DNA from: a virus
Direction: 5' to 3' (one strand)
DNA: 29,410 nt
Virus record (IMG/VR): IMGVR_UViG_3300029286_003709
Span: 1-29,410 of that record
The position numbers were made by a program, and so were the translations under genes. Below are positions 3,531-27,936 of this stretch, in pieces. Each line of letters starts with the position of its first letter. Within the stretch, counting starts at the first letter, position 1. The notes beneath the pieces are model-generated. The model saw nothing but the letters and a program-made list of their open reading frames with translations, had not been told where the DNA came from and ran no database searches.

Positions 3531-3557
3531 GTCGGACTGATCGGACGGATCGGACAT
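3531..3557. repeat. Family A repeat tract (units like GGATCGGAC)
   Basis: Nine-base units of the type GGACNGATC are repeated with small changes between gam and gemA. The same family recurs at least thirteen more times in the window. Confidence 0.75.
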
Positions 3558-6007: not shown

Positions 6008-8302
6008 TCAGAAATCCAACGGGCCTCCTTTCTTTTCTGGTGCTGTGTTTAGAACGGCGAGTTGTTCCGCCATGTCTTCGCCGCGGGCGAGGAGGCCGCG
6101 GCTTCGCGCGCGCGCTACGGCAGGGCGCGCGCGTGAATTTGACAGATTTGACGGATCCGACGGATTAGCCGACAAATCAAACCGCGCATCGCGGGTGCGC
6201 TGGCGCGCGGAAAATGCCGCGATGGCGGCGGTCTGGCGATCGGCGCGGGCGGTAAGAGCGGGGTTGCTGATCTGGGTGACCATAGGAGCAGACGGACCGC
6301 CCGGAGGGCGGCCCCTACCTGCGGAAAGGATGGGATTCGCCAGGATGCGCGTCATATCAACCACCGCCTGGCTGCCGGAGGCCAGGACCTCGGCCATAAG
6401 CTCCTCGTATTTATTGCGTTTACCGGCCTCGATCCCACGCTTGACTTCGATCAGATCGCCTTCCTGGCCGGCCTTGGGCATGCGCCAGGCATCGACACAG
6501 CGGCCAAGTTCGTGCACATAGGCCACACGCGGGCACTCCGGGAGTTGGAATGCCGTGACCTTCCGGCCGGCAAACTCCTGGACGCCGGCGTCAAAGCGGC
6601 CGTAGCCGAAATTGTTGAGCGTGAATCCGTTTTTGCCAACGGGGACCAGGTAACCGCGATGAAAGAAAAGAGGCAATAATTTTTCGTCGAGCGTTTTAAT
6701 TTCGGTCCGGCCACCGCCGGACAGGTGTACGGCATATTCGTTGGGGCTCATGTGCCGGTAGCGGATTGTGGTCTCCACGTCGGCGCCAGGCGCCAAGTGG
6801 CCACTTAACGCCGTTTGCGTTGACGTGGCGGGATCAACCATTTCCGGCAGAGCACTATGCGGCGTGTCATTATAGAGTTCCATCGCGGTTGCGACTCCGG
6901 CTTGCCACTGCGCGGGTGTCAGACGAATCTGCACCCGGCCGGCCTTGGCCTCGGCAAGGAGGGCGGCCTTGATTGTCTCGTGGTTGGCCGGCGCGGTATC
7001 GCGCTCGTCTCCGCCGACCTGTAAAACGTGGTCCCAGTTGCCCGGCTGGTTGTGCAGTGAACGCATGGCGCGCTCGATCACGCCCTTGCCGGCGGCGTGT
7101 CCGCTGGCCTGGTCGGCGAATGCGCCGGCATGGCGCTTGCCGCCATCCATCGACGTGCGGCAGACCTTGACGTCCAGGGACGTAAGCAGTTCTTCGAGTT
7201 GATCGTCACAGGCAACCGCGCCGCGCTCGAACCGGATCTCCGCCGGGATCCCGCCGGCGGGATTGGCAAAAGCCAGGCCGAGCAAGGCCTTGACCTGGTC
7301 GCCAACAATCCGCGTTTCCGTGGTGATCACCGCGATCCACTGCCGAGTGGATACCCTCATAACGGCATAGGCAAACGGACGGATGAAGCGCTCATGCGAC
7401 CAATTGAGTCCGTAGAAATCCTGTGTCACGTCATCGAGTTGCCACTCCTCATTATAACCCATGTTCGAATAGTCGCGCTGGATGTCAGGGGAATGCTTCT
7501 GCCGGAAAGCCGCCACGCCATATTTGCCGAGCGTCGCGGTAAAATGTTCCGGATCGCGTTCGGTCAGGCGGCGTAGCAAGGTGGCATAGGATACGTCCGG
7601 GACGTCTCCAGGATATTCCTTTTTCGCGGCGGCAATCCCCTTACGGAGATCGGCGCGGGGGTTCTTTATTGACCAGGCGTGGACGATATTAAGATAGACC
7701 TCCGGGATGTCCTTGCGTTTGCGCCCGCGCGTACCTTTCCAGGACGGCACAAGTGACATCAATCCGCCTGGCATACTGCTGTTCCAAGCAGTATGCCAGG
7801 CACGAAGCGTACCGGGCGAGAAACCGGCAAGGGTTACGACCTGGTTGTGTTTGCGGAGTTTATTTTTCGCCAGGCGCTCACCTATATGTATAGTGCGGCT
7901 TTTAGGGTTGGCCCTGTAGGCGGCGCAGACCTGTTCAGCCGCGACGGATTCCGGCAACCGGCCGCGCAGCTCTATATACAGGCGGACGGCCTCAGCCCGG
8001 AGATCCGCCAGAGCCAGGTCGTCGGGCGCCGGCGAACGGGAGTGATCCGGCGGATGGGACAGATCGGACGGATTAGTCCGGTCGGCAGCCAGGCCGGGGT
8101 GACAGCTCGCGTGATATAATTTGATCGGCCTGCCGCGCTCCTGGGGCTGGTACCGGATCAGGGCCGGATCCGTGCCGGAGAGTTCCCGGCGGGCGTGGCG
8201 GTGTGTGCAGTTCAGGCGAGCGGCAATTTGCCAGATGGGCAACCATTCTTGGCTGTCGTCCGTCGTCTGCCGTCTGTCGTCAGTCATTGGTTCAGGAGCC
8301 AT
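6008..8302 (-). CDS. Mu A-like DDE transposase
   Basis: This 764-residue protein carries out phage integration and replicative transposition (Mu A is 663). It has an N-terminal winged-helix region (residues 19-45, EWLPIWQIAARL), a second DNA-binding region (about 95-250) and a retroviral-integrase-like core. The first acidic residue is Asp290/291 in WQLDD and the last is Glu410 in GVIERAM. The middle position reads RFERG (Glu359) where DNG/DRG is expected. A Mu-type beta-barrel and tail follow. Repeat tracts have entered the gene at both ends: residues 6-17 (family B), 74-90 (family A) and near residues 707-722 (family A). The ATG at 8302 has AAGGAG. The C-terminus probably contacts the B ATPase. 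Confidence 0.95.
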   Translation of the reverse strand: MAPEPMTDDRRQTTDDSQEWLPIWQIAARLNCTHRHARRELSGTDPALIRYQPQERGRPIKLYHASCHPGLAADRTNPSDLSHPPDHSRSPAPDDLALADLRAEAVRLYIELRGRLPESVAAEQVCAAYRANPKSRTIHIGERLAKNKLRKHNQVVTLAGFSPGTLRAWHTAWNSSMPGGLMSLVPSWKGTRGRKRKDIPEVYLNIVHAWSIKNPRADLRKGIAAAKKEYPGDVPDVSYATLLRRLTERDPEHFTATLGKYGVAAFRQKHSPDIQRDYSNMGYNEEWQLDDVTQDFYGLNWSHERFIRPFAYAVMRVSTRQWIAVITTETRIVGDQVKALLGLAFANPAGGIPAEIRFERGAVACDDQLEELLTSLDVKVCRTSMDGGKRHAGAFADQASGHAAGKGVIERAMRSLHNQPGNWDHVLQVGGDERDTAPANHETIKAALLAEAKAGRVQIRLTPAQWQAGVATAMELYNDTPHSALPEMVDPATSTQTALSGHLAPGADVETTIRYRHMSPNEYAVHLSGGGRTEIKTLDEKLLPLFFHRGYLVPVGKNGFTLNNFGYGRFDAGVQEFAGRKVTAFQLPECPRVAYVHELGRCVDAWRMPKAGQEGDLIEVKRGIEAGKRNKYEELMAEVLASGSQAVVDMTRILANPILSAGRGRPPGGPSAPMVTQISNPALTARADRQTAAIAAFSARQRTRDARFDLSANPSDPSNLSNSRARPAVARARSRGLLARGEDMAEQLAVLNTAPEKKGGPLDF
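6141..6170. repeat. Family A repeat tract inside the transposase C-terminus
   Basis: Units like GACGGATCC are repeated in frame and encode a Ser/Asp/Pro/Asn-rich insert near the end of the transposase. Just downstream in the gene (about 6294-6325) another GC-rich palindromic insert encodes GRPPGGPSAP. Confidence 0.7.
8043..8086. repeat. Family A repeat tract inside the transposase N-terminus
   Basis: Nine-base units (GGACNGATC type) lie in frame and encode the linker NPSDLSHPPDHS between the first DNA-binding region and the next domain of the transposase. Confidence 0.7.
8255..8285. repeat. Family B repeat tract (GTCGTCT/GTCGTCC) at the transposase start
   Basis: Seven-base units of the GTCGTCT type are repeated and translated on the minus strand as DDRRQTTDD, directly after the transposase start. 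The same family recurs at 22176-22207 and 22481-22548. Confidence 0.7.
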
Positions 8303-20722: not shown

Positions 20723-22456
20723 ATGCAATCGAAAATCAAAAATCGAAAATCCGGTCCGTCTGGTTCCGCGCCGACCGTCGGCGCGGAAAGGGTCCGCGCC
20801 TACATCCGCTCCCGCTTCAATCCCATCCGGTCCCTGACCCCGGAATTGCTCTCCCAATATCTCGACGCCTTCAAAACCGGCTACCTGCGCCAATGCGCCC
20901 TGGTCTGGGATGCGATCGAGGAACGCGATGATACCCTTGCCGGCGTCATCGCCAAACGCAAGGCCGCCGCCGCGCGACATGGCTGGGAAATTGTCACCCT
21001 GGATTCCGTCCCCGAGGCCCAGAAGACCGAGGCCGAAACCCACAAGGAAGCCCTCGAAAACTTTTACAACAACCTTACCGTCGTTTCCGCCATTGACGAA
21101 AACGAGCGCGGGGAGGTTTCGCTTCTGCTCCGGCAAATGATGGATGCCGTCGGCAAGAAATATGCCGTGCATGAGATCATCTGGCGTCCGACGGATCAGT
21201 CCGATCCGTCCGATCGGTCTGATGCCACCGGCGCTCGCCGGGCGGGACTCACCGCCGAACTCCGCTTCGTGCCCCTCTGGTTCTTTGAGCACATCACCGG
21301 CCGCCTGCGGTACCTGCAAACCGAAGGCGCGCTTGAAGGCGTCGACATGGCGGATGACGCCTGGCTGGTTTCCGTCGCCCAGGGACTTATGCCGGCCTGC
21401 TCCGTGGCCTACATCTACAAAACCATGTCGCTCAAGGACTGGGTGATTTACAACGAGCGCCATGGTATGCCGGGGATCCACGGCAAGACCGATGCCGCCC
21501 AGGATTCCGACGAATGGAATGCCCTGGTTACGGCCGTCCAGAATTTCGCCGCTGACTGGGCGCTTGTCACCAACTCCGGCGCCACAATCGAGAAGGTTGA
21601 TATGGCCACCACCGGCCAGCTCCCTTATCCGCCCCTGGTCGAGCGCATGGACCGCGCCATGGCCGCCCTCTGGCGTGGCGCGGATCTCTCCACCATCAGC
21701 GGCGTCAAATCCGATGCAGGCCAGGGCGCCAGTCTCCAGGGCGATGAATCCGAGATCCTCGAACAAGACGATGCCCAGTGGCTTTCCGAGACGTTATCAC
21801 GTCAGCTCGATAAACGCGTCATCGAATATGTTTTTGGCGAGGGAACAAAACCTCTGGCCTACATCAAAATAAAAACTTCGCAGAAAAAGAACATCGCCCA
21901 GGAGCTCCTGGTGGATACCTTCCTGCGCGATTCCGGCGCGCCGCTTGGCGTTGATAGCGTCCTCGAACGCTACGGCCGCCCCACGCCCGACGCCGATGAC
22001 CAATTGCTTGTTTCACCCATGCTTCCAGCCGGCGGCGCGCAAAACCCGGCCGTCCCGCTTCGTCTCGGGACGGCAACTCCTGCGCAGGCGGCCCACCTGT
22101 CCGGCCAAGGCCGGACGCCCGCCGGCCTTGTTTCAAATTCGGCGGATCGGTCCGATCTGTCTGATCAGTCCGGGCCGTCGTCTGGCGTCAGTCGTCCGGC
22201 GTCCGTCAGCGAGGCCGTCGCCGCCACGCTGGGCGTGCGCTCCGAATGGCTGGCCCCATTCTTTGCCCAGCTCGAGGCCAAGGCCCAGGACAAAACCCTG
22301 ACCGATGCCGAACTCTTGGCCGCCATTGAAAACATGGCCAAGTCGCTCCCGGAGCTGCTGACTGAAAGCCACGTCCAGGATGTAGCCGCTGTTGTCCAGA
22401 AAACTTTAACCGCCGGTCTCGTTTCCGGCCTTACAACCCAAAACAAAGGAAATTAA
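20723..22456 (+). CDS. Mu gp29-like portal protein (DUF935 family)
   Basis: This 577-residue protein forms the ring through which DNA enters the head. Family features are visible: RFNPIRSLTPELLSQYLDAF near residue 30, the LVWDAIEERDDTLAG segment, WFFEHITGRLRYL, and GMPGIHGKTD in the core. The start is uncertain: ATG 20723 comes two bases after the terminase stop, while ATG 20705 overlaps the terminase end. Neither has a ribosome site. Repeats have entered at the N-terminus (family D, 20724-20752), around 21186-21222 (TDQSDPSDRSD) and near the C-terminus (families A and B, 22142-22207), where the protein tolerates length changes. Confidence 0.92.
   Translation: MQSKIKNRKSGPSGSAPTVGAERVRAYIRSRFNPIRSLTPELLSQYLDAFKTGYLRQCALVWDAIEERDDTLAGVIAKRKAAAARHGWEIVTLDSVPEAQKTEAETHKEALENFYNNLTVVSAIDENERGEVSLLLRQMMDAVGKKYAVHEIIWRPTDQSDPSDRSDATGARRAGLTAELRFVPLWFFEHITGRLRYLQTEGALEGVDMADDAWLVSVAQGLMPACSVAYIYKTMSLKDWVIYNERHGMPGIHGKTDAAQDSDEWNALVTAVQNFAADWALVTNSGATIEKVDMATTGQLPYPPLVERMDRAMAALWRGADLSTISGVKSDAGQGASLQGDESEILEQDDAQWLSETLSRQLDKRVIEYVFGEGTKPLAYIKIKTSQKKNIAQELLVDTFLRDSGAPLGVDSVLERYGRPTPDADDQLLVSPMLPAGGAQNPAVPLRLGTATPAQAAHLSGQGRTPAGLVSNSADRSDLSDQSGPSSGVSRPASVSEAVAATLGVRSEWLAPFFAQLEAKAQDKTLTDAELLAAIENMAKSLPELLTESHVQDVAAVVQKTLTAGLVSGLTTQNKGN
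20724..20752. repeat. Family D repeat tract at the portal start
   Basis: AAAATCGAAAATC-type units are translated as part of the portal N-terminus (SKIKNRKS). Confidence 0.7.
20891..20906. repeat. 16-bp direct repeat, copy 2 (portal)
   Basis: Here the sequence encodes the conserved RQCALVW region of the portal. This is probably the original of 20702-20717. Confidence 0.85.
21186..21222. repeat. Family A repeat tract inside the portal gene
   Basis: CCGATCCGT-type units encode TDQSDPSDRSD in frame. Confidence 0.8.
22142..22207. repeat. Adjoining family A and family B tracts near the portal C-terminus
   Basis: Bases 22142-22172 are TCCGATCTG-type units and 22176-22207 are GTCGTCTGGC-type units. 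Together they encode a Ser/Asp/Val-rich linker before the last helices. Confidence 0.8.
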
Positions 22457-22460
22457 AACC

Positions 22461-22931
22461 ATGAAAAAATCATCTTTCACCGTCCGTCGTCTGTCGTCCG
22501 TCGTCTGTCTTCTCCTGCTGTCGTCTGGCGTCTGTCGTCCGTCGTCGGCCGCATCCTTCGCGGGCTCCGACACCTTCGTCGTCACTAATGCCGCGACCGC
22601 CGTCATCCTGGGAACCAATGCGCCGACTTCCGGCGGGGCGGCTGTTGCCTGGCATCCCGCCGGCATCCTGGCCAACTTCCGCGATTCACCCACCGGCGCG
22701 GTCCTGGTCGTCCAGCATATCCGCGCCGGCGTGGTCAACCGCAACGTGAATGCGACCAACACGATCGCCGTGACCAATACGCTCTACACCACCAACGCCA
22801 CCGGCGCCGTCAGCGCCATCGTCTGGGATCCAACCGGAGTTTATACCGTCAATCCGACCAACGACTCGCTGCGGATCACGACCAGCAGCACGAATGCTGA
22901 GATTATTTTAAACAAGGAAATCCAGCGATAA
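22461..22931 (+). CDS. Exported protein in the head operon, signal peptide made of repeats
   Basis: This 156-residue protein starts at 22461 behind AAAGGA. Residues 1-31 act as a signal peptide: MKKSS, then a Val/Leu/Ser core (LSSVVCLLLLSSGV), then SAAS-type cleavage. The DNA of residues 7-30 is a family B tract (GTCGTCT/GTCGTCC units). The mature part is beta-rich and Thr/Asn-rich with no enzyme motif (VTNAATAVILGTNAP, then VTNTLYTTNATG). It sits between portal and protease genes, where Mu has F and G. It may be a surface or adhesin-like protein. Whether it enters virions is unknown. Confidence 0.8.
   Translation: MKKSSFTVRRLSSVVCLLLLSSGVCRPSSAASFAGSDTFVVTNAATAVILGTNAPTSGGAAVAWHPAGILANFRDSPTGAVLVVQHIRAGVVNRNVNATNTIAVTNTLYTTNATGAVSAIVWDPTGVYTVNPTNDSLRITTSSTNAEIILNKEIQR
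22481..22548. repeat. Family B repeat tract encoding a signal peptide
   Basis: About nine seven-base units (GTCGTCT, GTCGTCC and variants) lie in frame and encode the hydrophobic core of the signal peptide of the 22461 gene. Confidence 0.85.
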
Positions 22932-22939
22932 TTCTGTAA

Positions 22940-23030
22940 CCGTTGAACCGTGAACCTCAAAACTGTGAACCAAATATAATCGAGGCCCCCATGCCAACGA
23001 AGAACGAAGAACAAAGAACGACGAACGCTA
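22940..23030. repeat. Two adjoining repeat tracts (GTGAACC and AAGAACG types)
   Basis: Bases 22940-22973 contain GTTGAACC/GTGAACC units. Bases 22996-23030 contain AAGAACG/CGAAGAAC units, the second being translated as KNEEQRTTN at the start of the protease. Confidence 0.7.
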
Positions 23031-25946: not shown

Positions 25947-26951
25947 ATGTATCAAAAATTCTTAGCGGTCCTCAGCCTCCTGGCGCTCTTCGCCTGGTGT
26001 TCGCCCGCCTGGGCGGCCGGCGGCGGCGCCGACTACGGGCGCGGTCCGGAGACCGACCCGGTTGCCTTGGCCGCCGGCGCGATCGGCGATACCCAAGTTG
26101 GTTATAACATCAACGCGGCCAAACTGACCACCAACAGTACTCCGCCCAGGTTGAACCTTGTTAACGGCACGAATTTGCCGATCTCGGTGACAAAGCAAAC
26201 CGGCGCGGTGACGGCGACTGCCGTTGTCACGCCACAAACTCCGAGTGCGGTGACTCCGACGATCACTGTTACGGCTCAACGGCCAGGCGCGCAGACGCCT
26301 ACGATTACAGTGACCCCGCAGGCGCCCGCAACGGTGACGCCTACGATCACGGTGACAAAGGAAACAGGCGCAGTAACAGCAAGCGGTGCGAACAATCTGG
26401 TGACGCCTACAGCGACAATTACGCCGCAAGCACCCGGAGCGGTCACGCCGACCATAACGGTTACGCCGCAGACTCCCGGAGTGCAGACGCCAACGATCAC
26501 GGTGACGTTGTATGCTACAACGATCTATGATTCGACAGGTGCGGCCTGTACTAATGCTACTGGCGAGATTGCGGCAGTGGTAACAGGGGTGACGGCGACC
26601 TGTTCTGCATTACCTGACTTTGCCACAAACTCTACGGCATCGAGTTCTACGTTGCCAGTGTTTATGACTAACGCCACTTGCGCTATTTCGCCGGATTTAG
26701 CGAGCAACTCTGTGGTTGCGGTGTCTGTTATTGGCGGTGGGGCTGTTATGACGAACTCAACAGCTGTGTGTTCGACTCTACCAGACTTCGCCACCAACGC
26801 AACAGCAGTCAGCTCTGCGTTGCTCGATTACCCGACCAATGCCACGGCGACCTGTTCAACTTTGCCGGATTTTGCGACAAATGCGACGGCGGCAATAACG
26901 GTTATTGGCGGCGGTTTGGTGATGACCAACGCGATTGCGACAAATCCTTAA
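25947..26951 (+). CDS. Exported repeat protein, Thr/Pro-rich, in the head operon
   Basis: This 334-residue protein has a strong signal peptide (FLAVLSLLALFAWCSPAWA, cleavage about residue 23). The mature part holds two repeat arrays. The first (about 75-190) has six units of about 14 residues with the core TPTITVTPQAPGAV. The second (about 215-325) has units like TCSTLPDFATNA, interleaved twice with VIGGG-VMTN. Such arrays suggest an elongated, possibly surface-exposed fibre. It lies between major capsid and gp36-like genes. Codon use in the arrays is more even than in the capsid gene. Tail fibre, adhesin or envelope protein are all possible. Confidence 0.82.
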   Translation: MYQKFLAVLSLLALFAWCSPAWAAGGGADYGRGPETDPVALAAGAIGDTQVGYNINAAKLTTNSTPPRLNLVNGTNLPISVTKQTGAVTATAVVTPQTPSAVTPTITVTAQRPGAQTPTITVTPQAPATVTPTITVTKETGAVTASGANNLVTPTATITPQAPGAVTPTITVTPQTPGVQTPTITVTLYATTIYDSTGAACTNATGEIAAVVTGVTATCSALPDFATNSTASSSTLPVFMTNATCAISPDLASNSVVAVSVIGGGAVMTNSTAVCSTLPDFATNATAVSSALLDYPTNATATCSTLPDFATNATAAITVIGGGLVMTNAIATNP

Positions 26952-27013: not shown

Positions 27014-27466
27014 ATGTCCTGGGTTTCCATAACGATCGCCGATCTGAAGGACGCCAAGGTCTCCGCCCTGGTCGAGGCCTGCCGCACGGCCGCGCTGGGC
27101 GCCGGCCAGGCGGACCCGGTCCCGAATATCATCGCCAATGTCGCCACCCGGATCCGCGCGGAGATCTCCGGATGTGCCGGCAATGTCCTGGATGTGGATA
27201 CCGCCAAAATCCCGGCCGACCTGAAGGGCTTGGCCTGCCGGATGATTATGCGCGAGGCTATGAGTCGGTTGCAGCAGCCGCTCACCGAGGACGAGCGCGA
27301 GGAACAGCGCAACGACTTGCGCTACCTGGAACGCATCGCCAAGTGCGAGATCCCGGTCGCCAGCACGGATACCCCGGCCGTCTCGGAAGTCCAGCACGGC
27401 CTGGCTATCCAGCAGGCCAGCACCCCAACCCGCAACGCAACCAGGGAAAAATTGGCGGGACTATGA
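27014..27466 (+). CDS. Mu gp36-like head-tail connector protein (DUF1320 type)
   Basis: This 150-residue, mainly helical protein has the gp36-like order: a short N-terminal region, then ADPVPNIIANVATRIRAEISGC, then a middle IPADLKGLACRMIMREAMSRL helix, and an EDEREEQRNDLRYLERIAKCEIPV helix with charged ends. The family joins head and tail in Mu-type phages. Its position after the capsid gene and before F-like and G-like genes agrees. The ribosome site is weak. The stop overlaps the next start (ATGA). Confidence 0.82.
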   Translation: MSWVSITIADLKDAKVSALVEACRTAALGAGQADPVPNIIANVATRIRAEISGCAGNVLDVDTAKIPADLKGLACRMIMREAMSRLQQPLTEDEREEQRNDLRYLERIAKCEIPVASTDTPAVSEVQHGLAIQQASTPTRNATREKLAGL

Positions 27467-27936
27467 AAACAGGTAAAAAAAATCGGCGATCCGTCCGATC
27501 GGTCAGATCCGTCCGATTCGCCGGGGCGGTCCTCTTCGCTTTTCTGTTTTCCGTTTCCTGTTTCGCCCTCGAGCCCGCGTCGCTCTCCATCATCAGCCTC
27601 CGCGAAGAGGCTGTGGCCAATGCCTCTGAAGCCGATTTCTACAGCGGCGCGCCGCTCCTGTTGACCAATTGCATCGCCTATTCCGGCTCGACCACCAACA
27701 GCGCGCCGCAAAACCTGAGCAATCTGACCGTCGTCATCAAACTGGGCGTGGTGACCAATAACATCGCCTATACCGGCACAGTCGCCAACGCCACCAGCGG
27801 GACCTGGTGGGTGCGCATCGCTTCCGTCCCCAGCAACTGGGAATCGCCTAAGCTTTTCCTGCAACTCACGAATTCGACCGGCGATTGCCGGTTCGGGTAC
27901 CCGTTCAAAAATTTAAAGGTGAAAACACCCTTGTGA
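27463..27936 (+). CDS. Exported beta-rich protein in the head operon
   Basis: This 157-residue protein is translationally coupled to the gp36-like gene. The signal peptide has an unusual basic start (KKNRRSVRSVRSVR) coded by a family A tract (27486-27520), then the core GAVLFAFLFSVSCFA. The mature part is beta-rich. Its second half (NLTVVIKLGVV, then GTVANATSGTWWVRIASVPSNW, then YPFKNLKVKTPL) resembles small beta-sandwich modules of phage baseplate or fibre proteins. It may be a fibre-like or surface protein. Whether the signal really directs export or anchors it in the membrane is open. Confidence 0.8.
   Translation: MKTGKKNRRSVRSVRSVRFAGAVLFAFLFSVSCFALEPASLSIISLREEAVANASEADFYSGAPLLLTNCIAYSGSTTNSAPQNLSNLTVVIKLGVVTNNIAYTGTVANATSGTWWVRIASVPSNWESPKLFLQLTNSTGDCRFGYPFKNLKVKTPL
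27486..27520. repeat. Family A repeat tract encoding the basic part of a signal peptide
   Basis: CCGTCCGATCGGTCAGATCC-type units are read in a frame that gives RSVRSVRSVR at the N-terminus of the 27463 gene. Confidence 0.8.

Follow-up and report, generated by a model that had tools for sequence, protein, structure and literature searches.

Dispersed heptamer repeats in predicted export signals of a Mu-like phage, with different repeat families in orthologous genes

Signal peptides change so rapidly in evolution that one can seldom trace where they came from. The STRR of cyanobacteria are heptanucleotide simple sequence repeats. Further heptamers are described in other bacteria, including GGGAATC in Xanthomonas (PMC4692102), four-unit heptamers in Geobacter metallireducens (PMC2700814), and TAACTGA in Beggiatoaceae, which within ORFs lies mostly near protein ends and gives the same reading in every frame (PMC4679880). 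The repeats analyzed here resemble these bacterial repeats in having 7-base units with few copies each, and in being dispersed, mostly intergenic, and sporadic between genomes. They differ in that many unit families coexist, enter phage structural genes, and lie in predicted export signals where the repeat family differs between orthologues.

Three other systems bear comparison. As here, the Rickettsia palindromic elements and the enterobacterial RU elements are dispersed repeats fused in frame into proteins, and some of the proteins that carry RU elements have a predicted signal peptide (PMC10969869, PMC2759123). However, those elements are 100–168 bp long and palindromic or MITE-like, whereas the present ones are direct tandem tracts of 20–70 bp, with no terminal inverted repeats noted in the individual flanks that were read. 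The tandem repeats of Borgs likewise sit on an extrachromosomal element, arise quickly, and add new protein segments; they give rise to disordered regions, and the host has virtually none of them (PMC9879509), whereas the present repeats are common in some host-type genomes and contribute linkers as well as hydrophobic signals. In phase-variable heptanucleotide contingency loci, too, heptamers lie close to the start of a gene whose product is exported (predicted in our case), but the units here are imperfect and no length variation was observed in the one other copy.

The window, meaning the whole stretch of DNA analyzed, is a 29,410 bp IMG/VR virus record. It contains a Mu-like head operon of terminase, portal, 22461 gene, protease I, cement-like protein, and capsid, with profile matches for the portal (Portal_Mu at 3e-55) and protease I (1.6e-27). 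The closest bacterial contig in a portal search was a Kiritimatiellaeota prophage from Lac Pavin, with a portal identity of 57%. An AAGGAA motif precedes the start at 22461 and the portal stop lies five bases upstream. The encoded protein has no matches in Pfam, PHROG, or the GenBank phage collection, and its AlphaFold model is poor (mean pLDDT 37, too low for a fold search). Read directly, the N-terminus comprises MKKSSFTVRR, LSSVVCLLLLSSGVC, and RPSSAASFA. It has the features of a putative type I Sec signal sequence, namely a basic n-region, an uncharged hydrophobic core of ~8–15 residues, and small residues at −3/−1. The features at this locus, with a related tract in the transposase gene, are as follows:

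22461–22931, plus strand: 156-aa gene with a predicted N-terminal Sec-type signal, between the Portal_Mu and Mu-like protease I genes
22481–22546, plus strand: interrupted heptamer array GTCGTCY coding for residues 7–29 (TRF; synonymous null)
22481–22513 and 22518–22546, plus strand: lag-7 segments inside the array (lag-7 segment scan)
22509–22520, plus strand: codons 17–20 (LLLL), spanning GTCTTCT, a variant unit, and CCTGCT, an interruption of 6 bases (22514–22519)
8255–8285, minus strand: GTCGTCY-family tract in the transposase gene, antisense to it

TRF resolves the array as 9.6 copies at period 7 (score 69; score 81 at period 14), with 76% matches and interruptions; its DNA codes for MKKSSFTVRRLSSVVCLLLLSSGVCRPSSAASFAG. 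Across codons 1–36, 56 of 101 base comparisons match at lag 7, whereas 20,000 synonymous recodings of the same codons average 34.7 and never exceed 54. GTCGTC occurs six times in this region compared with a mean of 0.61 in the recodings. The probability is about 5e-5 for both measures, and lag 7 is the lag that stands out. The degenerate GTCGTCY array exceeds what the protein sequence forces. Throughout the window, ten tracts reach a segment score of at least 12 at lag 7, four at lag 9, and one at lag 14, a harmonic of lag 7, with none at the remaining lags between 4 and 15. An earlier note on this DNA had described residues 7–30 as the literal translation of the tract. The array is indeed real and codes for residues 7–29, but it is interrupted, and LLLL (residues 17–20) derives largely from the interruption that comes right after GTCTTCT rather than from repeat units.

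Strand, not frame, sets the coding character of a 7-base tandem. As 7 is not divisible by 3, every frame is present within three units. Sense GTCGTCT reads VVCRLSS in all three frames and its antisense TTDDRRQ; GTCGTCC gives VVRRPSS and TTDDGRR, respectively. Hydrophobic sense translations are given by several units (VVCRLSS, HSAFCIL, LCVLCVSA). The suggestion that the repeat landed in the right frame is overturned on this basis. Likewise, a one-base shift destroys the hydrophobic core of the interrupted tract, whose other frames read RPSSVVRRLSSPAVVWRLSSVVG and SVVCRPSSVFSCCRLASVVRRR, but leaves a pure repeat with the same cyclic heptapeptide. The reported reading of DDRRQTTDD in the transposase is confirmed, and arises because that tract is antisense to the gene. 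In a pure GTCGTCY tract, each heptapeptide contains R (or RRP), which would suit a hydrophobic core poorly. The 22461 gene encodes a run of 15 uncharged residues (11–25) only because LLLL, brought in by the interruption, stands where the next arginine would be. The repeat gives the n-region and part of the core, and the strongest part of the core is not repeat. On sequence grounds, it is plausible that the tract makes up most of a putative Sec signal.

The 22461 gene has one orthologue in the collections searched, in the phage of IMG/VR 3300002172_000059 (L004), where it also lies directly upstream of the protease. The two have diverged: their mature parts share 64% identity, and 59 changes fall at third codon positions compared with 34 and 31 at the others. 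No further orthologues were found in the viral contigs searched or in 288 genomes of the Kiritimatiellota class, the latter search having been run without a positive control. The L039 phage carries portal, protease, and capsid genes, and a 22461 copy was not found in it. The signal of the L004 orthologue, MKLLNTLTPILLLCVLCVSAVQLFA, is coded by TTCTCTGCGTCCTCTGCGTCTCTGCGGTG, a dispersed repeat with a CTCTGCG core and 8/9-base spacing, whose 23-base form has 16 matches in genome G221. An unrelated viral ORF of 655 codons in L221 also has this CTCTGCG-core element as the core of its signal (MKRKIILILLCVLCVSAVNFPARA). The earlier note had named orthologues with the same signal in non-repetitive DNA as the finding that would point to chance; the comparison was run, and the sole orthologue draws its signal from another dispersed repeat. 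The repeat is real, dispersed, strand-specific in coding, and frame-independent.

The head operon carries three predicted signal-peptide genes in total (22461–22931, 25947–26951, and 27463–27936), all kept in the L004 phage. The other two are:

25947–26951, plus strand: predicted signal-peptide gene with the non-repetitive signal MYQKFLAVLSLLALFAWCSPAWA
27463–27936, plus strand: predicted signal-peptide gene with the signal MKTGKKNRRSVRSVRSVRFAGAVLFAFLFSVSCFA, repeat-built in both phages from different repeats

In the latter, the n-region RSVRSVRSVR is a GATCCGTCC nonamer tract (27487–27517), and the L004 orthologue uses TGAAATC and CTTTGTGC repeats. The 25947 signal is non-repetitive in the window and repeat-built in L004 (MKFSKINSLMAMLFWLFILAFSFQPSAFS, with a TCAGCCT heptamer tract); therefore, acquisition or replacement occurs in this group. 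A fourth pair, 33264 of the L004 phage and its counterpart in the L039 phage, has AATGCAG heptamers in one and CTCTTTGCG-type repeats in the other. The earlier idea that a tract became or replaced a signal thus stands for the group through the 25947 pair, but the ancestral 22461 signal is not inferable from one diverged orthologue. Elsewhere, an unrelated viral ORF (L264 5642) has a putative signal, MNTKLKKLFRSLMITSAFCILHSALPAKA, built of a CATTCTG heptamer.

Tracts are also found in non-exported proteins of the window:

20727–20751, plus strand: AATCGAA heptamer tract at the portal N-terminus, a position common to the L004 and L039 phages
21194–21223, plus strand: GATCAGTCC nonamer tract in a portal loop, where the L039 phage has ACGCTCA heptamers
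22145–22207, plus strand: tract of the GATCAGTCC nonamer and GTCGTCC-type heptamers, in the portal linker ahead of VSEAVAATLGVRSEWL (TRF; L004 comparison)
22996–23027, plus strand: AACGAAG heptamer tract at the protease N-terminus, with AAATCGC heptamers at the homologous position in L004

The L004 portal has AATGCAG heptamers near the linker matching 22145–22207. Six tracts coincide at homologous positions of phage orthologues where 1.3 are expected (p = 0.0014), one of the six having entered post hoc after being seen. Such coincidences are what few permissive sites would give; the portal N-terminal tracts, whose repeat families are similar, may possibly be ancestral. A dispersed nonamer family (GATCCGTCC / ATCGGACGG) recurs at 3532, 6137, 16875, 18569, 21194, 23525, 27487, and 28863; as 9 is divisible by 3, frame and strand determine whether it reads SDPSDPS or RSVRSVR.

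The assignment of the tract to a dispersed repeat is borne out in related bacteria. An exact 20-mer of the GTCGTCY family (family B) has 33 matches in one related Kiritimatiellota genome, and of the 288 class genomes only 8 contain the family (up to 41 matches; a control pattern gave none in all eight). Host statistics were compiled from ~0.73 Mb of G001 and 0.8 Mb of G047, with gene starts and signal calls from crude home-made methods rather than Prodigal or SignalP. At lag 7, 729 kb of G001 contain 86 tracts and the first 400 kb of G047 contain 26, and other lags have 0–8 apart from the harmonic 14; the tiles were taken mostly by contig and some for their family-B matches, so these densities and those below describe the tiles rather than genome averages. 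In G001, 48 of the 86 tracts are intergenic, compared with 12.8% of the DNA. Per 1000 windows of 105 bases, lag-7 windows number 22.8 in intergenic DNA, 23.1 in signal-peptide N-termini (6/260), 13.8 in other N-termini, 7.7–12.4 in C-termini, and 2.0–2.4 in gene bodies (19/8345), with other lags near 0. Host signal-peptide DNA holds heptamers at intergenic density, about tenfold that of gene bodies (Fisher p = 8e-5). The difference from other N-termini is not significant (p = 0.39), so that the tolerance extends to N-termini generally and is not proven to be particular to signals. Among the six signal-peptide cases are two pilin-type leaders and one in which the tract follows the cleavage site. 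Tract hydropathy is positive in signal-peptide N-termini, about −1.4 mid-gene, and about −2.1 at C-termini. In both genomes, family B inside genes is mostly antisense, and each has a signal from this family (G001 C50:15087, G047 C2:13541). With 7-base tandems at many loci of one genome and a preference for intergenic DNA and gene ends, the repeat is a dispersed STRR-like heptamer.

The N-terminus of an M16-type peptidase in G001 consists of three heptamer families in a row (RSSF, RRLSSVVCRL, FCILHFAFCI), and its counterpart in G047 has a different heptamer mix. Prepilin-like genes of G001 have AACGAAG/AACGACG tracts in the leader n-region. In two Kiritimatiellota genomes, the signals of M16-type peptidases (L171 18200–18290, L162 10457–10600) are mosaics of several heptamer families, with more stacked heptamers in the inter-domain linker, and three adjacent prepilin-like genes (L137 10329, 11871, 12594) have AACGAAG or AACGACG n-regions just before the processing site.

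How the signal came to be written in repeat DNA can be explained in more than one way. The resemblance could be coincidental, produced by chance or codon bias, given that signal peptides are low in complexity and that V, S, L, and R codons can yield GTC/CGT runs. This is very improbable in view of the synonymous null, the prominence of lag 7, the lack of a comparable host signal at other lags, and the recurrence of the GTCGTCY family elsewhere in the window and in relatives. A different possibility is that a dedicated process spreads the repeats, which are then retained as export-signal suppliers through signal shuffling. Repeat-built signals of three families occur in phage and host, and the CTCTGCG element is identical over ~33 bases in two unrelated viral ORFs (L004, L221). 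However, most repeat copies lie between genes or run antisense, signal-peptide N-termini have no significant excess over other N-termini, and the individual tract flanks that were read revealed no transposase, terminal repeat, or target duplication. We regard such a mobile module as unlikely.

It had also been proposed that slippage in unit number switches or tunes export. Tuning is rejected since 7 is not divisible by 3: a change of one or two units would shift the frame and turn the gene off, the array is imperfect, and the one other copy is identical. An on/off contingency locus operating by frameshift is possible in principle. The unit shifts the frame, the other two native frames stop 13 and 66 codons past the tract, and repeats close to N-termini are classically phase-variable (PMC4692102, citing Lin and Kussell). 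Nevertheless, the array is imperfect and interrupted rather than long and pure, and its sole other copy, from a separate dataset, is 100% identical over 10,972 bp; we hold a switch here to be quite improbable.

It is instead probable that the signal DNA of the 22461 gene was overwritten by a dispersed heptamer repeat widespread in some Kiritimatiellota genomes, that the protein is exported, and that a tolerance filter rather than a switch is at work. Repeats would spread or expand by copying or by an in-place process, land everywhere, and persist where their reading is harmless. Signal peptides would accept stop-free repeat DNA because they need only charge and hydrophobicity. In the 22461 gene, sense GTCGTCY would have provided an n-region with arginine and, in LSSVVC, a moderately hydrophobic segment, and the interruption, by taking out the next arginine, would have created the core at residues 11–25. 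Stop-free hydrophobic readings may thus serve as part or all of a signal, with mutation improving them, and the 22461 protein would then be Sec-exported and cleaved near residues 29–34. The present pattern of sites would mainly mirror this filter. The best explanation is that signal peptides are low-constraint DNA, overwritten repeatedly by short dispersed repeats, which are retained wherever they read as hydrophobic.

Dispersed heptamers, tolerance at protein ends, and fast signal evolution are each known separately. In the literature searched on bacterial heptamers and repeats in ORFs, we found no repeat-built signal peptides differing in family between orthologues, and the combination with family switching at the orthologue level appears to be new as far as these papers go. 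The pattern is real and general, and of more interest as turnover than as a lone oddity. More tentatively, short tandem repeats might be a standing supply of export signals, with stop-free, frame-independent units repeatedly replacing host and phage signals so that orthologues carry unrelated families; we consider this broader idea possible but doubtful. The findings explain why strand, not frame, decides the effect of a heptamer tract on a protein, and warn that an N-terminus of this kind in a metagenomic protein can result from reading through repeat DNA. In these genes, the source DNA of the signal is still legible and the sources differ between orthologues; the birth and replacement of export signals are therefore directly testable.
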